A DNA stretch of 64,000 bases from Streptomyces mirabilis (GTDB lineage: Bacteria; Actinomycetota; Actinomycetes; Streptomycetales; Streptomycetaceae): the NCBI RefSeq assembly GCF_018310535.1, contig NZ_CP074102.1, forward strand, positions 5,580,001 to 5,644,000, written 5' to 3'. The first letter of the stretch is position 1; every line of letters begins with the position of its first letter. The position numbers and the translations under genes are program-made. The notes beneath the pieces are model-generated. The model was not told where the DNA came from. It made no database searches and worked only from the letters and a program-made list of their open reading frames with translations. Shown one piece after another: positions 54,080 through 64,000 of this stretch.

Positions 54080-55102
<1,023 letters not shown>

Positions 55103-55147: not shown

Positions 55148-56548
55148 TCAGCCTCGCCTGATGGTGATCGTCGTCCAGGCGCCGACATGCACCCGGTCGC
55201 CGTCCTGGAGCGGGACCGGCACGAAGGGCTGGATGGGCTCCTCGCCGCCGTTGACCGTGGTGCCGTTGGTCGAGTTCTGGTCGACGACCGCCCAGCTGCC
55301 GTCCGGCTGCTGGACCAGGACCGCGTGCTGGTGCGAGACGCCCGGGTCCTCCGGGGGCACCGAGAGGTCGATGTCGGGGGTGTCGCCGGTGGAGTGCCGA
55401 CGGCGGCCGATCGTCATCTGGTTGCCGGTGAGCGGGCGCTGCTGCTCCGGTGAGTACGCGGGCAGGTTCAGGCCCGCGGCCTCGGGGCCGGAGCGCTGCA
55501 TCATCGCCATGAAGTACTCGCGGTCGGGACCGATCGTCGCGCTCCAGGACAGCGGCTGCCGCTGCTGCTGGTAGTCGGGACCGGGGCCGGGCGGGGCCTG
55601 GGTGGCGCCGGGCTGCGGATAGCCGTAGCCGCCGCCCTGACCCATGCCGGGACCACCGGGACCACCGGGGCGGCCGCCGGGGCCACCCGGCCCTCCGGGC
55701 GAATTGCCCGACGGCGGGGAGATCACCCAGTCGTCGTCACCGCCGCCGAAGGACGGGCCCCCGGACTGCGGACCGCCGGGCCCGGGCGGACCCTGCTGCG
55801 GGAACGCGGGCGCGGCCGGCTGCTGGGTGAAGGCCTGCGGGGCGCCGGGGCCACCGGGTCCGCCGGGCGTGGGCCCGGGCGGCGGCGGAACCGGACGGGA
55901 CGGGTCCGCACCGAAGCCGCCGGGACCAGGACCACCGAAGCCACCGGGCCCACCGGGACCGGCACCTGGACCGCCGGGACCACCAGGGCCACCGGGACCG
56001 CCCTGACGGGACGGGTCGCCGCGGAAGCCCGACGGATCCTGCCCGTAGGGCGGAATCGGTTCCGCGGGGCGGTTCATCTGCGAGGGCCGCGAGCTCTGGT
56101 AGTCGAACGGGTCGTGACCGGGACCGGTCGCGGGGCCGGGGCCGCCCGGCTGCCCCTGCGGCGGCTGCTGGAAGCGCAGCGCCGGATTGGGCATTCCGGG
56201 CGCGGGCGACTGCGGACGCGGCGCCGCCGGGGTGTACGAGGTCGCCGTGTTCGTCAGGAAGTTCCACCGGCACTCCTCGCAGAACGGCGCACCGCCCTCA
56301 CGGGGCGTACGGCACTGCGGGCAGAGCTCCGGCTCGGGATTGGGCACGGCGGACAGGTGCGGGCGCCCACCGGGGGCGCCGGGGCCGCCGGGACCGGAGG
56401 GCGGGGGCGAGCCGGGCGGCGGATAGCCGTAACCGGAGGCGGGCGGCGGCGGTGGAGGGGGCGGAGGCACGGCACCGGCCATGCGGTGACCGCAGACCTC
56501 GCACCAGTCGTCGGAACCCGACTGGTGTCCGTTCGGGCAGGTCGGCAT
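55148..56548 (-). CDS. FHA-domain protein with two N-terminal zinc ribbons
   Basis: A 466-aa protein. Zinc ribbon 1 uses Cys4, His8, Cys16 and Cys19. Zinc ribbon 2 uses Cys76, Cys79, Cys90 and Cys93 (CPQCRTPREGGAPFCEEC). A long Gly/Pro-rich linker (residues about 110-340) follows. The C-terminal FHA domain (about 375-466) has MTIGRRRHS, GVSHQHAVL and DQNSTNGTTVNG, the phosphothreonine-reading motifs. It is the last gene of the PknG-like/PP2C/VWA cluster. FHA proteins bind kinase substrates, so it is probably a client or adaptor of the kinase at 59490. Flexible-linker length is unusual. Confidence 0.88.
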   Translation of the reverse strand: MPTCPNGHQSGSDDWCEVCGHRMAGAVPPPPPPPPPASGYGYPPPGSPPPSGPGGPGAPGGRPHLSAVPNPEPELCPQCRTPREGGAPFCEECRWNFLTNTATSYTPAAPRPQSPAPGMPNPALRFQQPPQGQPGGPGPATGPGHDPFDYQSSRPSQMNRPAEPIPPYGQDPSGFRGDPSRQGGPGGPGGPGGPGAGPGGPGGFGGPGPGGFGADPSRPVPPPPGPTPGGPGGPGAPQAFTQQPAAPAFPQQGPPGPGGPQSGGPSFGGGDDDWVISPPSGNSPGGPGGPGGRPGGPGGPGMGQGGGYGYPQPGATQAPPGPGPDYQQQRQPLSWSATIGPDREYFMAMMQRSGPEAAGLNLPAYSPEQQRPLTGNQMTIGRRRHSTGDTPDIDLSVPPEDPGVSHQHAVLVQQPDGSWAVVDQNSTNGTTVNGGEEPIQPFVPVPLQDGDRVHVGAWTTITIRRG

Positions 56549-56621
56549 GTCGGCGCTTCCCCCTCTCCTTTTCCGGCCGTTGTGACCGGGTTTCTCCAGT
56601 TCCCCACGGGAACCGGGCTCG

Positions 56622-57968
56622 CTACTTCTTTACACGAACAGTCTTTGTGGACCGTGTCTCAAGGGTCATTTCGTCAGCCTCTTCGACCCTTGCCTTCAAT
56701 CGCACAGTACCTGCCGCGGCGTCGACCACGTCCACCACCTTCGCAAGCAGTTTCGCAGTATCCGCGTTGCCCGACGCGCTCGCGAGCTGAACGGCGCGGC
56801 CCAGCTTGGCCGTTGCCCCGTCGACATCTCCCGATTTGCGCAGGTCCAGGCCTTGTTGGATGACTTGTGCCAGTTCCGCCTGGCCTGTGTAGTGCGCGAC
56901 CTGGGCGTTGATCCTCGTCGAGGCCACCATGTCGTCGGTCCACACGGCCTTGACGAGCCCCTGGGCGCCGAGGTTGTGCACGCCCCCGTCGCCCTGCGGC
57001 ACGACGAGCGAGACCCGGGCGGCCAGCATCTCCTGGCCCACTCCGGCCAAGGGGACCTCGACGCACACGTGGTAGTCGCGGGACTCGTCGCCCCAGGACC
57101 CGGTGGGGTAGTCGCCGGCGCGCGGGCCCGCCTCGGAGCGACGGTCGGTCAGCTCCTCGACCGTGGGGGCCACTTGCTTGACGAACTTGATCTCGGTGCC
57201 GACCGGCGTCCACAGGCGCAGCGCGACGTCCGCGACCTCCTTGCCCATGGCCGTCTCCATCATCTGTGTGAAGTCGGCGGACAGGGCGGCCGGGTCCGCG
57301 ACGATGTCGGCGGTGCCGAGCAGCGCCGAGGCGATCCCGGTGACCTCCTTGACCTCCCAGTCCGTGCCCACTCCACGCGCGTCACAGGTGAAACGTCCGG
57401 CACAGGAGTCGAGGGCGGCCTTGAGGTCCTCCGGCGACTCGTGTTCGTTGCGGCCGTCGGTCAGCAGGATGCCGTGCCGGATCGGCACCTCGGCCGAGGA
57501 CAGCAGCCGGTCGGCGAGGCGCAGCCAGGTGCCGATCGCCGTACCGCCGCCCGCGCTCAGCCTGCGCAGTGCCTCCTTGGCCTGGCCGCGGGTCGCCGCG
57601 TCGGCCACCGCGAGGCGCCCATTGCCGGGGTAGACCTCCTTGGCGACGTGCGTGCCGCCGATCACCGCGAAGTGCACGCCGTCGCGCAGGGTGTCGATCG
57701 CGGCGGCCGTGGCCTCGCGGGCGTTGCGCATCTTGGTCGGCGGGTAGTCCATCGAGCCGGAACAGTCGACCATGATCGCCACGGCGGCGTCCGGGCCCCG
57801 GCCCGCCGCGTACAGGTGGGGCGCGCCGACCGCGCTCCCGACGGTGCCGCCTCCGGTGGCGCTCACCGTGACGATCGCGTTGACCTCGCGGCCGCCCTCG
57901 GGCAGGTACTCGTTCTGGTACACGTCGACCGAGAACTGCGGCACGTTCGACTTCGAGAAATTGGCCAT
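56622..57968 (-). CDS. VWA-domain protein of a kinase/phosphatase/FHA cluster
   Basis: A 448-aa protein, with ATG at 57968 (MANFSKSNVPQFSVDVYQNE). VWA domain with MIDAS AIMVDCSGSMDYPPTKMRN, TAIGTWLRLADRLL and HGILLTDGRNEHE. The C-terminal half contains a beta-rich region (DYHVCVEVPLAGVGQEMLAA) and a helical tail (ATAKLGRAVQLASASGNADT). No signal peptide, so cytosolic, unlike the VWA lipoprotein at 17929. It lies 73 bases upstream of the FHA gene and 117 after the phosphatase. Such VWA proteins often accompany Ser/Thr kinase, PP2C and FHA genes. Function unknown. Confidence 0.85.
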   Translation of the reverse strand: MANFSKSNVPQFSVDVYQNEYLPEGGREVNAIVTVSATGGGTVGSAVGAPHLYAAGRGPDAAVAIMVDCSGSMDYPPTKMRNAREATAAAIDTLRDGVHFAVIGGTHVAKEVYPGNGRLAVADAATRGQAKEALRRLSAGGGTAIGTWLRLADRLLSSAEVPIRHGILLTDGRNEHESPEDLKAALDSCAGRFTCDARGVGTDWEVKEVTGIASALLGTADIVADPAALSADFTQMMETAMGKEVADVALRLWTPVGTEIKFVKQVAPTVEELTDRRSEAGPRAGDYPTGSWGDESRDYHVCVEVPLAGVGQEMLAARVSLVVPQGDGGVHNLGAQGLVKAVWTDDMVASTRINAQVAHYTGQAELAQVIQQGLDLRKSGDVDGATAKLGRAVQLASASGNADTAKLLAKVVDVVDAAAGTVRLKARVEEADEMTLETRSTKTVRVKK

Positions 57969-58085
57969 GCCTTCTTCGTCCCCCTCAAGACCTCCGGTAG
58001 TTGGCGGAGGCGATGACTGTATGCGGACCGGTCCCCTCCGGTCCGAGGCCGTCCCCGTGGGCACGGATTGCGCCTTTTCGCGGCC

Positions 58086-59486
58086 TCAGGCCGATCCTGC
58101 CCCCTGTGGCGGGGCCGGGAACGGGACGACGGCCACTGTTACGTTGTCGTGGCCCCCACCGTCCAGGGCGTGACCCACCAGGACCTGGGCGCTGTGGAGG
58201 GGCCTTTCGGCGGCGTCCAGCGGCACGACCTCGGCCATCTCCTCGGCCGCCTCCGCGTAGTTCCACAGTCCGTCGGTGCACACGACCACCACACCCGGCC
58301 GGTCCGGCTTGAAAGAGGCGGTGTGCGGCTCCAGTTCGTACGCGTCCGCGCCGAGCCAGCCCGTGATGGCATGGGCGCGCTCGTCGGCGTACGCCTGCGC
58401 CTCGCTCATCAGGCCCGCGGCGACCATCTGCGCGGCCCAGGAGTCGTCCTCGGTGAGCCGGGCGGGGGGCGAAGTCCGGTCGACGGGGACCCAGTAGGCG
58501 CGGCTGTCGCCGACCCAGCCGACGATCAGCAGGGCGGGGGTGACGACGGCGCCGACGAGGGTGCAGGCGGGCGCGTTCTGGTGCGGGGCGTGCTCCTCGT
58601 GCGCGGGGGGCGCCTCGGCCAGCGAGTTGACGGCCTCGGAGGCCGCGAGGATCGCCTCGTGCATGGCCTGCTGAGGGTGGGTGCCGAGCGGCAGCGCCGC
58701 CAGCAGCGCCTCGCCCGCCGCCCGCGACGCGGCGAGCGAGGCCTCGTCGGGGCGGGTCGCCGAGGAGACCCCGTCGCAGACGATCGCGACGACCGCGGGC
58801 GAGCCGTCCGGCAGCGCGGTCGAGGAGATCGCGAACGCGTCCTCGTTGCGGTGGTGGCGCAGACCCCGGTCGCTGACCGCGGCCACCGCACCCAACTCCT
58901 GCTCCATGTGATCCCGTTCGCGCGGCTGGGCGTGCCCGCAGTTCTCGCAGTAGCCGTCGCTGTCCACATGGCCGGAGCGGCAGGCGACGCACAGTTTGGT
59001 GCCCGCTGGGGGCGTGACGGGTGTGGCGAGCTCGGCGGTCCGCGGATCGACGACGGGCCCGGCGGGGGCTTCGGCCGGCGGGGCGAGCGGGTACTCGTCG
59101 GGCTCCGGGGGCCGGTCGAACCGTACGCCCGAAGGCTGCCCGCCCGAGGGGTGGTCGCCCGGCTGCTGGGCCCCTGCGGACTCCGTGTCCGGGTGCGGGA
59201 GTTCGGAGCCGCCCGAGTCCATGCCCCGGATGTCGGTCGCCCGGTGCACCGGCGCGGGCGTGTCGGAGCTCGCCGGCTCCGGCGCGAGGGGCCAGTCCAG
59301 GGACGCGGCGGCCTCGGAGGGGCGTGTCGACGAGCCGTTCATGGCGATCGTGGGGTGGTCCTGGGGCGGTGTGGGCACCGCCGACAGGTCGTACCCGCAC
59401 GCACCGCAGAAACGGTCACCCGTCTCCAGGGGCTCCTCGCAACTGGGGCACCGCGAAAGGGCCGTCGGCTGGGGCATCTGGGACAT
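58086..59486 (-). CDS. PP2C-family Ser/Thr phosphatase with two zinc ribbons
   Basis: A 466-aa protein. Zinc ribbon 1: Cys13, Cys16, Cys27, Cys30. A Pro/Ser/Asp-rich linker separates zinc ribbon 2: Cys166, Cys169, Cys180, Cys183 (CVACRSGHVDSDGYCENC). The PP2C domain follows from about 200: RGLRHHRNEDAFAI, VAIVCDGVSSATRPDEASLA, IVGWVGDSRAYWVP, and GGHDNVTVAVVPF, including the metal-binding Asp residues. ATG 59486 follows directly on the kinase stop and is preferred over an adjacent TTG. It is likely to reverse phosphorylation by the kinase encoded just upstream. Confidence 0.88.
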   Translation of the reverse strand: MSQMPQPTALSRCPSCEEPLETGDRFCGACGYDLSAVPTPPQDHPTIAMNGSSTRPSEAAASLDWPLAPEPASSDTPAPVHRATDIRGMDSGGSELPHPDTESAGAQQPGDHPSGGQPSGVRFDRPPEPDEYPLAPPAEAPAGPVVDPRTAELATPVTPPAGTKLCVACRSGHVDSDGYCENCGHAQPRERDHMEQELGAVAAVSDRGLRHHRNEDAFAISSTALPDGSPAVVAIVCDGVSSATRPDEASLAASRAAGEALLAALPLGTHPQQAMHEAILAASEAVNSLAEAPPAHEEHAPHQNAPACTLVGAVVTPALLIVGWVGDSRAYWVPVDRTSPPARLTEDDSWAAQMVAAGLMSEAQAYADERAHAITGWLGADAYELEPHTASFKPDRPGVVVVCTDGLWNYAEAAEEMAEVVPLDAAERPLHSAQVLVGHALDGGGHDNVTVAVVPFPAPPQGAGSA

Positions 59487-59489
59487 CAA

Positions 59490-62054
59490 TCACACCCACG
59501 TCCGGGGGCGGTAACGGTTGGCACGTTCCACCAGGTCGATCCTCTCCTCGCCGCCCTGCGCGAGGCGGGCCAGCGTGCGGTACGAACGCTCCAGTGCGAA
59601 ACGCAGACCGCGCTCGTCCACCTCGCTTCCGAGCAGCACCCGTCCGCCGCCGGAGTGCGGGGCGGAACTCCGGCTACCGGAGAGTACCCAGTCCAGGGCG
59701 CAGCCAAGGACTTCCGTCGACAACTGCTCGCGTCGCACCGCGTCCAGACCGTATCCGTCCAGAGCCTCGACCTGGCCCGCGGCGGCGGTCAGATCGTCCA
59801 GGAACGCCGCTGCCGCCGCCTCCTCGGCCAGCCGCTGCCGCAGCCGCGCCCGCACGGCCGCGACCCGCGCCGCCGTGTAGTGGATCGACGACTCCGGTAC
59901 GGACTCCAGTGTGCGTACGGAGCCGCGGCGGTCGCCCGCCGCGAGCTGTACGCGGGCCAGGCCGAACGCCGAGCTGACATAGCTGGGGTCGGTCGTCCAC
60001 ACCAGGCGGTAGTACTCGCCCGCGTTGTCCAGCTGCCCGAGCACCTCCGCGCACAGGCCGAGGGCCAGCTTCGGCGCGGGCTCGCCCGGGAAGGCGTCGT
60101 AGATCGCGTCGAAGGACAGTGCCGCGGTCTCGTGCTCCCCGGTCGCCAGGGCCGCGACGCCCCGGTACCAGACCACCCGCCAGTCGTCGGGATGGTCCGC
60201 CTCCAGCGCCTCAAGGGCCCTGCTCGCACTGGCCAGTTCGCCCATCTCCAGCCGGGCCCGCAGCTCGCGCAGGCGCAGCTCCAGAGAGCCGGTGGGCGCC
60301 GCGTGCAGGGCGGTGATCAGCTCCGCGGGCGCCGAGGCCATCAGGCCCGCGAGGAAACCGGCGTTGGGGTCGCCCGGGTCGACGCGGGGGACCGGCAGCG
60401 CGAGCGCGGTGGCCGCGGCGTTCAACGGCTTGACCAGAGCGGCCGGGGCCGGGGCCGGAGCGGGCGCGAGGGGGAGCGGCGGGGTCCCGTTCACCCCCGC
60501 CCCGTTGGCGCCGGGGGGCGGCGCGGGCGCGCGCTTTCTCCCCCGTAGGGGCACCACCCGCGCCCCCAGTCGCGACACGTCTCCGTCCAGCATCCCGAAC
60601 AACTCCGTGTCCGTGACCTTCAGTTCCGGCCCGAACAGGGTGGACAGGGCCGGGCGCGCCCGGCCCGTCTGGAGGGACACGACCTCCCTGAGCACACCCG
60701 TCAGCTGCTCCGCCATCTCCTGCGCGGACGCGAACCGGCGCGCCGGATCGGGGTCGGTGGCGCGCACCAGGAGCCGGTAGAAGGACTCGTACGTCCGGAA
60801 GACCTCGATGTTGTCCGGGTCCGGCAGGGAGTCCACGAAGACGTTCGTGTACCCCTGGAAGTCGAAGGTCAGCACGGCCAGGGTGCGGGCGACCGTGTAG
60901 AGGTCACTCGCCACCGACGGACCGACCTCGGCCACCTCCGGCGCCTGGTAGCCCACCGTGCCGTAGATGGCCGACTCGTCGTCGTCCATTCTGCGCACCG
61001 CGCCCATGTCGATCAGCTTGAGCTGGTCCTCGGTCTGGATCGCGTTGTCGACCTTGAAGTCGCAGTAGAGCAGATTGCGGCTGTGCAGATGGCCGAGTGC
61101 CTCCAGGGCCTCGATGCCGTACGCGCAGGCCTGCTCCACCGGCAGTGGATCGCGCTTCCCGTCCCCCGTCCGGCGCCCGTTGGCGATCTCCTTCAGCGAC
61201 TTGCCGCCGACGTACTCCATGACGATGTACCCGTCCAGCGAACCCGTCCGCTGGTCCAAGTGCTCCACGAAGTTGTAGATCCGCACGATGTTGGCGTGCT
61301 CGATCTCCGCCAGGAAGCGCCGCTCGGAGATCGCCGCCGCCATCGCGTCCTGGTCGCCGGTGTCGAGCAGACCCTTGAGGACCACCCAGCGGTCGGAGAC
61401 CGCGCGGTCGACGGCGAGGTAGACCCAGCCGAGCCCGCCGTGCGCGAGACAGCCCACCACCTCGTACTGGCCGTGCACGATGTCGCCCGTGTGCAGCTTC
61501 GGCACGAACGAGTACGGGTGACCGCACTTGGTGCAGAACCCCTCGGTGCGCCCCACCCGCTCACCGCGCGAACGGCCCACCGGCGCCCCGCAGTCGGAGC
61601 GCGAGCAGAACCGCTTCCGCTCGGGCACCTCCGGGTTCTCCAGCACCATCGCGCGCGGGTCGGGCCGCGGCACGTCCGGCACCTGCACCAGCCCGACGCC
61701 GAGCCGGCCGCGGCCACTGGAGGCGGCGGTCGAGCCCGAGCTGCGCACCGACACCGAGCGGCCGGTCGCGTTGCCGGACAGCGAGCGCGACAGGCGTCCG
61801 GAGACCGAGCGCCGCGACTGGGCGGAGCGCGAGGACGTACGGGAACTGGAGCTGCGGGAACTCGCCCGCGAACTGCTGCCGGAGCCGCGCGAGCCTTTGC
61901 CGCCCGCGGTGAGTCCGGTCGGGGGCGAGCCCACCATGCCGTTCGACGCGACGACGGGCGCCAGACCGCACGTGTCGCAGTACAGCTCGCCGCCGCCCAC
62001 GTCCTCGTACGACCCCGGGCAACCGGGCCGCTGACACTTCTGCTGCTCACTCAC
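59490..62054 (-). CDS. PknG-like Ser/Thr protein kinase with zinc ribbons and TPR region
   Basis: An 854-aa protein. Zinc ribbon 1 at Cys7, Cys12, Cys26, Cys29. A Ser/Arg-rich linker (residues 53-113). A rubredoxin-like second site Cys150, Cys155, Cys174, Cys177. The kinase domain (about 190-460) has CLAHGGLGWVYLAVDRAVSD, VVLKGLLDTGDQDAM (ATP Lys), catalytic LYCDFKVDNAIQ and LKLIDMGAVRRMDD in place of DFG. A TPR-like helical C-terminus fills the rest. This order is that of mycobacterial PknG. Start GTG 62054. PknG links amino-acid sensing to metabolism; the target here is unknown. Confidence 0.9.
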   Translation of the reverse strand: MSEQQKCQRPGCPGSYEDVGGGELYCDTCGLAPVVASNGMVGSPPTGLTAGGKGSRGSGSSSRASSRSSSSRTSSRSAQSRRSVSGRLSRSLSGNATGRSVSVRSSGSTAASSGRGRLGVGLVQVPDVPRPDPRAMVLENPEVPERKRFCSRSDCGAPVGRSRGERVGRTEGFCTKCGHPYSFVPKLHTGDIVHGQYEVVGCLAHGGLGWVYLAVDRAVSDRWVVLKGLLDTGDQDAMAAAISERRFLAEIEHANIVRIYNFVEHLDQRTGSLDGYIVMEYVGGKSLKEIANGRRTGDGKRDPLPVEQACAYGIEALEALGHLHSRNLLYCDFKVDNAIQTEDQLKLIDMGAVRRMDDDESAIYGTVGYQAPEVAEVGPSVASDLYTVARTLAVLTFDFQGYTNVFVDSLPDPDNIEVFRTYESFYRLLVRATDPDPARRFASAQEMAEQLTGVLREVVSLQTGRARPALSTLFGPELKVTDTELFGMLDGDVSRLGARVVPLRGRKRAPAPPPGANGAGVNGTPPLPLAPAPAPAPAALVKPLNAAATALALPVPRVDPGDPNAGFLAGLMASAPAELITALHAAPTGSLELRLRELRARLEMGELASASRALEALEADHPDDWRVVWYRGVAALATGEHETAALSFDAIYDAFPGEPAPKLALGLCAEVLGQLDNAGEYYRLVWTTDPSYVSSAFGLARVQLAAGDRRGSVRTLESVPESSIHYTAARVAAVRARLRQRLAEEAAAAAFLDDLTAAAGQVEALDGYGLDAVRREQLSTEVLGCALDWVLSGSRSSAPHSGGGRVLLGSEVDERGLRFALERSYRTLARLAQGGEERIDLVERANRYRPRTWV

Positions 62055-62073
62055 ACTGCATCACCTTCAACGC

Positions 62074-63399
62074 TCACGCGTGGGGCCCCCTACGGTCGGT
62101 GGGGCCGCCCTGTTCGGGCACCCGCGGGCTGAGCAGATCGACGGCGGCCCGCTGATAGCGCAGCACCGCCTCCTCCGCCACCCGCAGATCGCAGGGCGCG
62201 CTCCACAGCATGCGTCGGGCCGCGTCGTAGCGCTCGATGAGGAACGGGTCCTCCGCGAGGCCGTGCCGGGCCACCTTCGCCTTGTACGCGTCGAGGCGGC
62301 CGCGCAGCTCCGCGCGGACCGCCAGCGGCGCGGTGACCGCGGTCAACGACTCGCGGGCGCGCAGCAGCTCGTCCTCGGCCTTCTCCTCCAGCGCTTCCAG
62401 GAGCGGCGAGAGACGGTGCCACTGGGCGTGTCTGCGGAACTCCGCAGCCGTCGCCAACTGCTCCTGCAGCAGCGTCGGCGGCCCGCTGACGGCCGGCACC
62501 TCGGACGCGGCGATCTTCGCCAGCACCTCACCGCGGGCGCTCCTCGCCTCCGCGAGCGTGCGGTCGGCGCGGCTGAGCACGTCCCGCAGCCGCACGAGTC
62601 GGGCCTCCGCGTCCTGGCGGACGGTGAGCACCGCGTCGATCTCACGGCGCACGTCCTCCAGGGCGCGCGCCTCGCGGTCGTACGTCGTCGTGTCGGGACG
62701 TCCGCCGCCGGGCGCCGAACTGCCCTTCGTGGGCACCCAGAAGGCCAGCGGGTCGGAGACGACCTGCTGACGCAGGGTGCTCAGCGTCCGGGTGATCCGC
62801 TCCAGGTCGTCGCCCGCCGGGTGTTCACCGGGGCGTACGCCCACGGAGTGCGCGAGCTGGCGGGTGCGCTGGAGCTCCGCGGCCAGTAAATCGATCCGGG
62901 CGGGCAGCGCGGACCAGACGGCGTCCGCGGCGACGACCATGTCGAGCGAGGACGCGTACAGCTCGTTCATCCGCTCCACCAGCGCGACCAGCGAGAACTG
63001 CTCGCTGAGCTTGCCGGTGCCGGAGAGCGTCGGCGCGTTCGCCGCGGCCGTGGTCGAGCCGGCGACCGTGATGCTCACGCCGCGCAGCAGCTCGGTCAGC
63101 TCGACCAGGTCCTCACGGCTCGACCAGCGCCGCCGGGAACGGATGTCGCGGGCGGAGCGCAGCGCGTCCGTGTACGCGTCGAAGTACGCCCACAGCAGCG
63201 TGATCGACGCCTCCGCGGTCGACCAGCGCTCGTTGGTCGTACCCGTGAGCTCGGCGCCTTCGAGGAGTCTGCGGCCCGCGTGGTCCTGCAGGGCGAGGAG
63301 CGAGGTCTCGATGGCCTCGTGCTCCGCGCCGAGCCGCGCCAGCGCACGGTCCACCTCGTCCCGGTCCATCACCGGCCCGGGGGGTCCCGTGACGCCCAT
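62074..63399 (-). CDS. Soluble helical protein between kinase and solute-binding protein
   Basis: A 441-aa, mostly alpha-helical protein with heptad-like stretches (VDRALARLGAEHEAIETSLL, VLSRADRTLAEARSARGEVL, ALEEKAEDELLRARESLTAV, DAYKAKVARHGLAEDPFLIE). No transmembrane helix, signal peptide or known catalytic motif. ATG 63399 with GAGAGGTGATCG upstream. Nineteen bases separate its stop from the kinase start, so it is the upstream gene of the kinase. It is not a GlnX-type membrane sensor, though it occupies that place in the order. It may bridge the binding protein's receptor and the kinase, but this is inference. Confidence 0.75.
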   Translation of the reverse strand: MGVTGPPGPVMDRDEVDRALARLGAEHEAIETSLLALQDHAGRRLLEGAELTGTTNERWSTAEASITLLWAYFDAYTDALRSARDIRSRRRWSSREDLVELTELLRGVSITVAGSTTAAANAPTLSGTGKLSEQFSLVALVERMNELYASSLDMVVAADAVWSALPARIDLLAAELQRTRQLAHSVGVRPGEHPAGDDLERITRTLSTLRQQVVSDPLAFWVPTKGSSAPGGGRPDTTTYDREARALEDVRREIDAVLTVRQDAEARLVRLRDVLSRADRTLAEARSARGEVLAKIAASEVPAVSGPPTLLQEQLATAAEFRRHAQWHRLSPLLEALEEKAEDELLRARESLTAVTAPLAVRAELRGRLDAYKAKVARHGLAEDPFLIERYDAARRMLWSAPCDLRVAEEAVLRYQRAAVDLLSPRVPEQGGPTDRRGPHA

Positions 63400-63482
63400 C
63401 GATCACCTCTCGCTCTCGGTCGTGCCCGTCGCTTGCGTTCCCGCCGGCCGCGTCGTCCGCGCTGCCGTTGCCCGGATTTCCG

Positions 63483-64000
63483 TTACTTGTAGTGCGCCGT
63501 CGGCGGAGTCGCCGACGGGGAGTCCGCCTTCAGGGTCGCGGACAGCCACTTGGTGTACGAGGCCTGCCAGCCGCCGCTCTTGCGGTAGTCCACGAGCACC
63601 TGGTTGACCCGGCGTACCAGATCGCCGGCGCCCAACTTCATCGCCACGCCGTAGTAGTCGTCGGTGAAGGTCTTGCCCTTCAGCTCGACCGTCGGGTCCT
63701 GCGCCGCCTGGCTGGCGGCGAGCGCGCCGTCGGTCACCACGGCGTCGACCTGACCGAGCTGCAGCCGCACCAGGCAGTCGAGTTGGTTGGGCACGGTGGT
63801 GGTGATGTCCGCGGAGGAGGCGAGCGTGCCCGCCTTCTTGTCGGCCGACAGCCTGTCGTACGCCGTCGAGCCCGCCGCCGAGCAGATCCGCTGGCCCGCC
63901 AGCGTCTTGTCGTACCCCTTGATGCCGGAGGTCTTGGGGGCCAGTACCTGCTGTCCGGTCAGGAAGTAGGGGGCGGAGAAGGCCACGTCCTTGAGGCGGG
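63483..64000 (-). CDS. Glutamate/glutamine-type solute-binding protein, C-terminal part (cut by window edge)
   Basis: The reading frame is open to the right edge, so the N-terminus (and any signal peptide or lipobox) is missing. The visible 170 residues are the second lobe of an SBP_bac_3 amino-acid-binding protein: FSAPYFLTGQQVLAPKTSGI, GQRICSAAGSTAYDRLS, LDCLVRLQLGQVDAVVTDGA, YYGVAMKLGAGDLVRRVNQV. This family binds polar amino acids. Next to a PknG-like kinase it is the natural homologue of mycobacterial GlnH, the glutamate/aspartate sensor acting upstream of PknG. Confidence 0.85.
   Translation of the reverse strand, partial: RLKDVAFSAPYFLTGQQVLAPKTSGIKGYDKTLAGQRICSAAGSTAYDRLSADKKAGTLASSADITTTVPNQLDCLVRLQLGQVDAVVTDGALAASQAAQDPTVELKGKTFTDDYYGVAMKLGAGDLVRRVNQVLVDYRKSGGWQASYTKWLSATLKADSPSATPPTAHYK

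Follow-up and report, generated by a model that had tools for sequence, protein, structure and literature searches.

A seven-gene PknG operon of Streptomyces mirabilis that may carry an ArnAB-like phospho-switch

The last part of a 64,000-nucleotide stretch of Streptomyces mirabilis DNA (the window; 5,580,001-5,644,000 of a large contig in a genome of 9.62 Mb, with positions counted below from its first letter) holds most of an operon that reads glnX-glnH-helical protein-pknG-PP2C-VWA-FHA. The bacterial kinase PknG has been studied a great deal in the setting of a three-gene operon; the seven genes are read here, with a probability of about one half, as a PknG nutrient-sensing operon in a longer form that incorporates an ArnAB-like phospho-switch. 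Judged by sequence, the parts would be a GlnH/GlnX sensor, a PknG writer, a PP2C eraser, a VWA hub, an FHA reader and a helical protein; we infer all of the binding and phosphorylation and also the relay in Streptomyces. The short cluster of mycobacteria looks like a stripped-down form of the Streptomyces cluster, and should the seven-gene form prove the older of the two, a phosphatase, a scaffold and a reader are missing from the standard PknG model.

Gene content and conservation of the operon

A sequence-only reading of the window had described six consecutive minus-strand genes as a PknG signalling operon with GlnH, PP2C, VWA and FHA partners. The six genes lie where they were placed, Pfam identifies the GlnH-like, PknG-like, PP2C, VWA and FHA domains, and the operon assignment is supported. 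GlnX had been called missing, which proved wrong: it is absent from the window because the window ends there, and reading past 64000 shows it at 64532-66037 (L002:14532-16037; 501 residues), lying 532 bases beyond the window end and overlapping glnH by 4 bases. The glnH gene occupies 63483-64000 (minus strand) in the window and runs on to 64535 (L002:13483-14535; 350 residues). GlnH matches SBP_bac_3 (PF00497; 6e-27) and the solved GlnH structure 6H1U (3.4e-45), and GlnX matches NF058618 (3.5e-153; 510.6 bits against a cut-off of 250) while scoring below the cut-off of the stricter equivalog NF041460 (184 of 780 bits).

The kinase gene (59490-62054, minus strand; 854 residues) encodes an extra N-terminal ribbon followed by rubredoxin, kinase and TPR domains (PknG_rubred, PF16919, 5.6e-30; Pkinase, 8.6e-25; PknG_TPR, PF16918, 1.5e-86), and the nearest kinase found, from S. 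diastatochromogenes, is 98% identical. Its best PDB match, 2PZI (3.4e-170), aligns from residue 116 on, so that the 2PZI construct has nothing that corresponds to residues 1-115, with their extra ribbon and Ser/Arg-rich linker. The PP2C phosphatase (58086-59489, minus strand; PP2C_2, PF13672, 4.6e-13) is a 467-residue frame whose start candidates are TTG 59489 or a nearby ATG. The VWA protein (56622-57968, minus strand; 448 residues; VWA_3_C, 4.9e-22) has the residues of the metal ion-dependent adhesion site, and the FHA protein (55148-56548, minus strand; 466 residues) matches FHA (PF00498; 1.6e-16). The motifs expected for catalysis or binding are present in the kinase, PP2C and FHA proteins.

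The helical protein (62074-63399, minus strand; 441 residues) gave no Pfam match above the cut-off and no convincing fold. Among 8000 candidates scored for it, 2890 relatives passed; the 120 listed comprise proteins that are unnamed, hypothetical or coiled-coil and a single one named ketosteroid-isomerase-like. A role for it as a substitute for GlnX was considered and rejected, GlnX being present and no helical-protein gene being detected in reduced glnX-glnH-pknG operons.

For conservation, samples at the level of phylum, class and order were searched for PknG_TPR, and 80 stretches of at most 20 kb around matches were picked by hand, and hence non-randomly, to span families and second copies; a greedy overlap filter dropped some FHA and VWA matches from the first locus maps, which were seen in a later map. 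All seven genes stand together in 39 of the 80 loci, from nine families, and the gene order extends far outside close relatives. The order of the window is found in 27 of the 39 (by family handle, f1 8, f78 7, f7 6, f99 3, f93 1, f73 1 and f3 1), eleven more, all from f77, are rotated so that glnX-glnH come last, behind fha, and in the remaining one, from a family outside the class (f41), the sensors are divergent. L058, counted among the 39, retains no more than a remnant of VWA. Contig-truncated loci are found among the other 41, as are divergent paralogues, partial losses and reduced operons. Among named Streptomyces loci, 67 of 80 have all seven genes in order; the other 13 are without genes at one or both ends, which contig ends may explain.

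Most loci from f3, a family that probably represents mycobacteria and relatives, to judge from its high PknG scores and GarA sequences, are reduced operons. Eight of its 11 loci have glnX-glnH-pknG only, two show no more than the kinase (both of these genomes have two PknG matches), and one (L169) has all seven genes; the f97 locus also has the three-gene form. A quick tree of 80 kinases, rooted at the midpoint, places the L169 kinase as sister to the ten remaining f3 kinases (99 in the Shimodaira-Hasegawa-like approximate likelihood ratio test), as expected of gene loss, and the reduced group requires 4 changes. In a class sample of 295 genomes, VWA_3_C occurs in 72 of 113 genomes with PknG_TPR versus 3 of 182 without it, so 72 of the 75 VWA_3_C genomes also match PknG_TPR (E at most 0.001); among f3 genomes with PknG_TPR it occurs in 1 of 30. 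This co-occurrence, with kinship ignored, fits a loss of the added genes.

Several genomes carry further PknG loci. The f3 genome of L169 (G505) has its complete seven-gene operon in addition to its best PknG copy. Three divergent second loci (L041, L042, L046) contain a relative of the helical protein, a kinase and a VWA frame that ends in a zinc-ribbon-like stretch, with no FHA and no clear PP2C gene. In paralogue loci of f78 (L048, L051, L053, L054, L191, L192, L193) the gene facing the kinase is a divergent glnH, in most cases accompanied by glnX, and L053 and L192 have two GlnH-GlnX pairs each.

Zinc ribbons and the separate GarA

Two zinc ribbons had been read on each of the kinase, phosphatase and FHA proteins, and two cysteine-rich sites are indeed present on each, although the second on the kinase is the established PknG rubredoxin domain (residues 150-177; 61524-61607, minus strand; Pfam and sequence pattern) and the first on the FHA protein has His as its fourth ligand. 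The extra kinase ribbon, C-x4-C...C-x2-C, is a sequence pattern near residues 7-29 (61968-62036, minus strand). The PP2C ribbons lie at residues 14-31 (59397-59450, minus strand) and 167-184 (58938-58991, minus strand), and those of the FHA protein at residues 4-19 (C-x3-H...C-x2-C; 56492-56539, minus strand) and 76-93 (C-x2-C-x10-C-x2-C; 56270-56323, minus strand). Pattern counts over the 39 all-seven loci show that the cysteines are conserved in orthologues: the extra kinase ribbon is found in 33, is degenerate with three Cys in five more and was not found in L056; the rubredoxin cysteines are found in 33; at least one PP2C ribbon in 39 and at least two in 34; and the FHA four-Cys pattern in 38 (bridging two ribbons in five rows, L057, L065, L169, L196 and L198) and the FHA CxxGH ribbon in 30. 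With gene order and ribbon cysteines both conserved far outside close relatives, neither of the outcomes named beforehand as telling against the operon, an order confined to close kin or ribbon cysteines lost from orthologues, is found.

The ribbons are also selective within genomes, where 1.5-kb flanks were searched and ribbons far from a domain may be hidden. In the S. mirabilis genome, one of six PP2C_2 proteins has a ribbon in the coding frame, that of the operon (a second match is in a shadow frame, and the count covers the PP2C_2 family as distinct from other PP2C families), as do two of nine FHA proteins, that of the operon and GarA (leaving out a twelfth, weak domain match); these proportions argue that the ribbons do not occur by chance. 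Among 30 of 31 kinase matches examined, PknG and one further raw pattern match have such a pattern. Ribbon-bearing FHA proteins number 2 of 6, 2 of 5 and 2 of 10 in three other genomes (G333, G451 and G557), always GarA and the operon FHA protein. Within the four genomes checked, these counts support ribbons specific to this pathway. In the first reading, a docking or redox-sensing layer formed by the ribbons would assemble writer, eraser and reader into one complex.

The long FHA protein had been taken to stand in GarA's place. This possibility was rejected in view of a separate GarA gene (L073; G000:C1:7498308, plus strand) 1.86 Mb from the operon, which encodes its own N-terminal ribbon shortly before the ETTS motif (SETTS; 7.2e-56; 190 bits, under the curated OdhI cut-off of 200). 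The operon FHA protein scores 22.1 bits against the OdhI model, and no ETTS motif occurs in its translation. A GarA ribbon shortly before the kinase-target motif was seen in 25 of 31 genomes (three of them missed by the cut-out of the main pattern and seen by other means) and was not seen in the four f3 genomes examined, the f97 genome and the f83 genome. Of the 31, 23 have a canonical VWA gene (E below 1e-180), and the GarA ribbon occurs in all 23; of the eight without it, two (G330, G442) have the GarA ribbon and six do not. Fisher's test for this association gives 3.8e-5 over the 31 genomes, kinship ignored.

These data bear on a rather unlikely alternative, namely that VWA, FHA protein and PP2C share PknG's sensor and drive a response of their own that has no link to GarA, for instance in differentiation or in the state of the envelope, with ribbons that serve VWA-FHA-PP2C pairing only and a GarA ribbon that records older history. 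The divergent paralogues, with a helical relative, a kinase and a VWA protein and with no FHA or clear PP2C, show that the modules are separable, and f3 genomes with reduced operons keep GarA without VWA; yet GarA is the sole ribbon-bearing FHA protein besides that of the operon in the four genomes, and its ribbon is missing from the f3 genomes examined.

The VWA protein as a candidate hub

The VWA protein places its vWA domain within a split beta-sandwich followed by a C-terminal helical domain, the architecture that an ArnA-ArnB module requires, and the FHA protein has the ArnA-like layout of ribbon, Gly/Pro-rich linker and FHA domain, its second ribbon having the ArnA Cys spacing. Published passages on ArnA-ArnB describe a C-x2-C-x10-C-x2-C zinc ribbon of ArnA that docks the FHA protein on the beta-sandwich and C-terminal domain of ArnB, as well as a SIETT region in ArnB that is phosphorylated by a kinase and afterwards bound by the FHA domain. 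By analogy, ribbon-mediated docking in the PknG operon gains some outside support. The VWA tail (DEMTLETRSTKT; 56640-56675, minus strand) is conserved and is a candidate phosphothreonine site; its motif, LETRSTKT here, is found in 116 of 125 VWA proteins, and a search of the phosphoproteome literature for this tail returned nothing of use. In L199 (7800-8507, minus strand) the vWA domain is gone, the second part of the beta-sandwich is kept and the tail that remains reads VETQVTK, and L178 likewise has a VWA-family protein without the vWA domain that keeps the later beta-sandwich part.

In the proposed sequence of events, binding of an amino acid to GlnH would be relayed through GlnX to PknG, which would phosphorylate threonines in the C-terminal domain and tail of the VWA protein as well as the ETTS motif of GarA; PP2C would remove these phosphates. 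The ribbons of the FHA protein, PP2C, PknG and GarA would act as weak address tags on the beta-sandwich/helical part of the VWA protein, and the FHA domain would next lock onto the VWA phosphothreonines. Recruitment in the long form would rely on these two kinds of contact. Bacteria of the mycobacterial type would have lost the helical, PP2C, VWA and FHA genes together with the extra kinase ribbon and the GarA ribbon, glnX-glnH-pknG being kept.

Four observations weigh against this proposal: the first Thr of the VWA tail varies, the likeness of the VWA protein to ArnB is architectural and not sequence-specific, the co-loss rests mostly on one clade, and ribbons persist where the VWA gene was lost (L173, L175, L177 and G442). 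The last of these would also be expected if the genes merely shared an operon and pathway with no common hub, their ribbons being stabilising or redox-sensitive folds spread by domain shuffling and not docking elements, and the PknG rubredoxin is described as redox-sensitive in the literature passages available. The specificity of the ribbons within genomes and the docking of the ArnA ribbon on ArnB both speak against such plain co-transcription, which is judged improbable. As to sequence, the VWA protein aligns with the ArnB structure 8S05 at 1.5e-8 over the vWA part only, no better than other VWA proteins do, and the likeness is weak.

A structure of the candidate hub is already in hand. The VWA protein of a PknG operon from Catenulispora (G557) is identical to 4FX5 (Caci_2163) over 440 of 440 residues, and on this identity the genome is named as Catenulispora acidiphila or all but identical to it. 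If the phospho-switch reading is correct, the operon would be a bacterial counterpart of ArnA-ArnB, and with 4FX5 available, PknG substrate recruitment becomes directly testable in Streptomyces. A bolder extension is offered tentatively and is itself doubtful: the ribbons may form a shared address code by which PknG, its phosphatase, its FHA reader and GarA dock on a single ArnB-like VWA hub, Streptomyces and Sulfolobus may have one and the same ancient machine as their nutrient switch, and mycobacterial PknG-GarA may be its remnant after loss of hub and code, with phospho-FHA docking on the PknG N-terminus taking over.

Sensor pocket, surroundings and known systems

In the solved GlnH, side-chain contacts to Asp/Glu are described for Arg147, Thr162 and Trp232 (PMC6069109, in the passages available). 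The Arg and Thr are kept in the S. mirabilis GlnH and Trp232 is replaced by Gln. In the GlnH alignment this position is Trp in 10 of 10 f3 and f97 rows and in none of 63 others (two gapped); all 9 Streptomyces rows have Gln and all 20 f77 rows have Tyr, and residues are mixed in the remaining rows, where the loop alignment is uncertain; the Arg is retained in 69 of 73 rows and the Thr is more variable. The sensed amino acid in Streptomyces and f77 may therefore differ from Asp/Glu, the binding of which is predicted for GlnH within Actinomycetales in the same passages (PMC6069109), and the ligand in antibiotic producers needs measuring and should not be assumed.

Upstream of glnX, across a 365-base gap, lies a BadF-type gene on the same strand. 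Downstream, a protein-isoaspartate methyltransferase gene (54080-55102, plus strand) is convergent with the FHA gene; this neighbour was found at 8 of 9 loci from the genus, counting the present one, and, where the flank was long enough, at 55 of 59 named Streptomyces loci, as against 0 of 43 from other families. A promoter and terminator scan gave nothing above chance. The methyltransferase connects the locus with published work in which 1410 methyltransferases were found in conserved 'FHA-VWA' clusters beside a Pro/Gly-rich FHA protein that the enzyme was suggested to modify (PMC10787088, as far as available). This 'FHA-VWA' cluster is very probably the Streptomyces form of the present locus, the difference being that the methyltransferase setting was found here beside the FHA gene in Streptomyces loci only; neither PknG nor kinase occurs in the accessible main text of that paper. 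In the available text of PMC6069109 the PknG operon is said to be conserved in Actinobacteria; GlnX and GlnH are named there, and the terms phosphatase and von Willebrand do not occur. Among open-access literature, a search for PknG, von Willebrand and FHA together returned only a 2005 domain survey, whose retrieved passages do not contain this operon. Figure 2B (a STRING operon view) of PMC6069109 and Figure S13a of PMC10787088 may already draw these genes.

The combination of VWA, PP2C, kinase and ribbon also recalls the TerY-P triad, as described in the passages available, and capture of such a metal-sensing or defence triad by a PknG operon would account for the parts list of VWA, PP2C and zinc-ribbon kinase. 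In TerY-P, however, the ribbon is at the kinase C-terminus, which here is PknG_TPR, and the present operon is kept beside nutrient-sensor genes across families; a TerY-P origin, no defence library having been searched, is very improbable.

In C. glutamicum and mycobacteria, GlnH senses, GlnX relays and PknG phosphorylates GarA/OdhI, the FHA substrate being recruited through phosphothreonines on the PknG N-terminus (PMC9769921, PMC6069109, PMC8546545, in the parts available). Like the glnX-glnH-pknG operon of these bacteria, the Streptomyces locus has GlnX, GlnH and a PknG with rubredoxin, kinase and TPR domains, together with a separate GarA bearing ETTS; unlike it, the locus has four more genes, extra ribbons on the kinase and on GarA, and a changed GlnH Trp232. 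The orthologous 4FX5 of Catenulispora acidiphila is cited, in the passages available, with neither function nor operon context. The ArnA-ArnB system of Sulfolobus acidocaldarius (kinase ArnC, phosphatase PP2A) differs in its enzymes, which here are a PknG with a membrane sensor and a PP2C, both also carrying ribbons, and VWA sequence similarity to ArnB is weak. It is alike in having a reader that joins ribbon and FHA domain, a VWA partner with a split beta-sandwich and C-terminal helical domain, a kinase, a phosphatase and a nutrient input.

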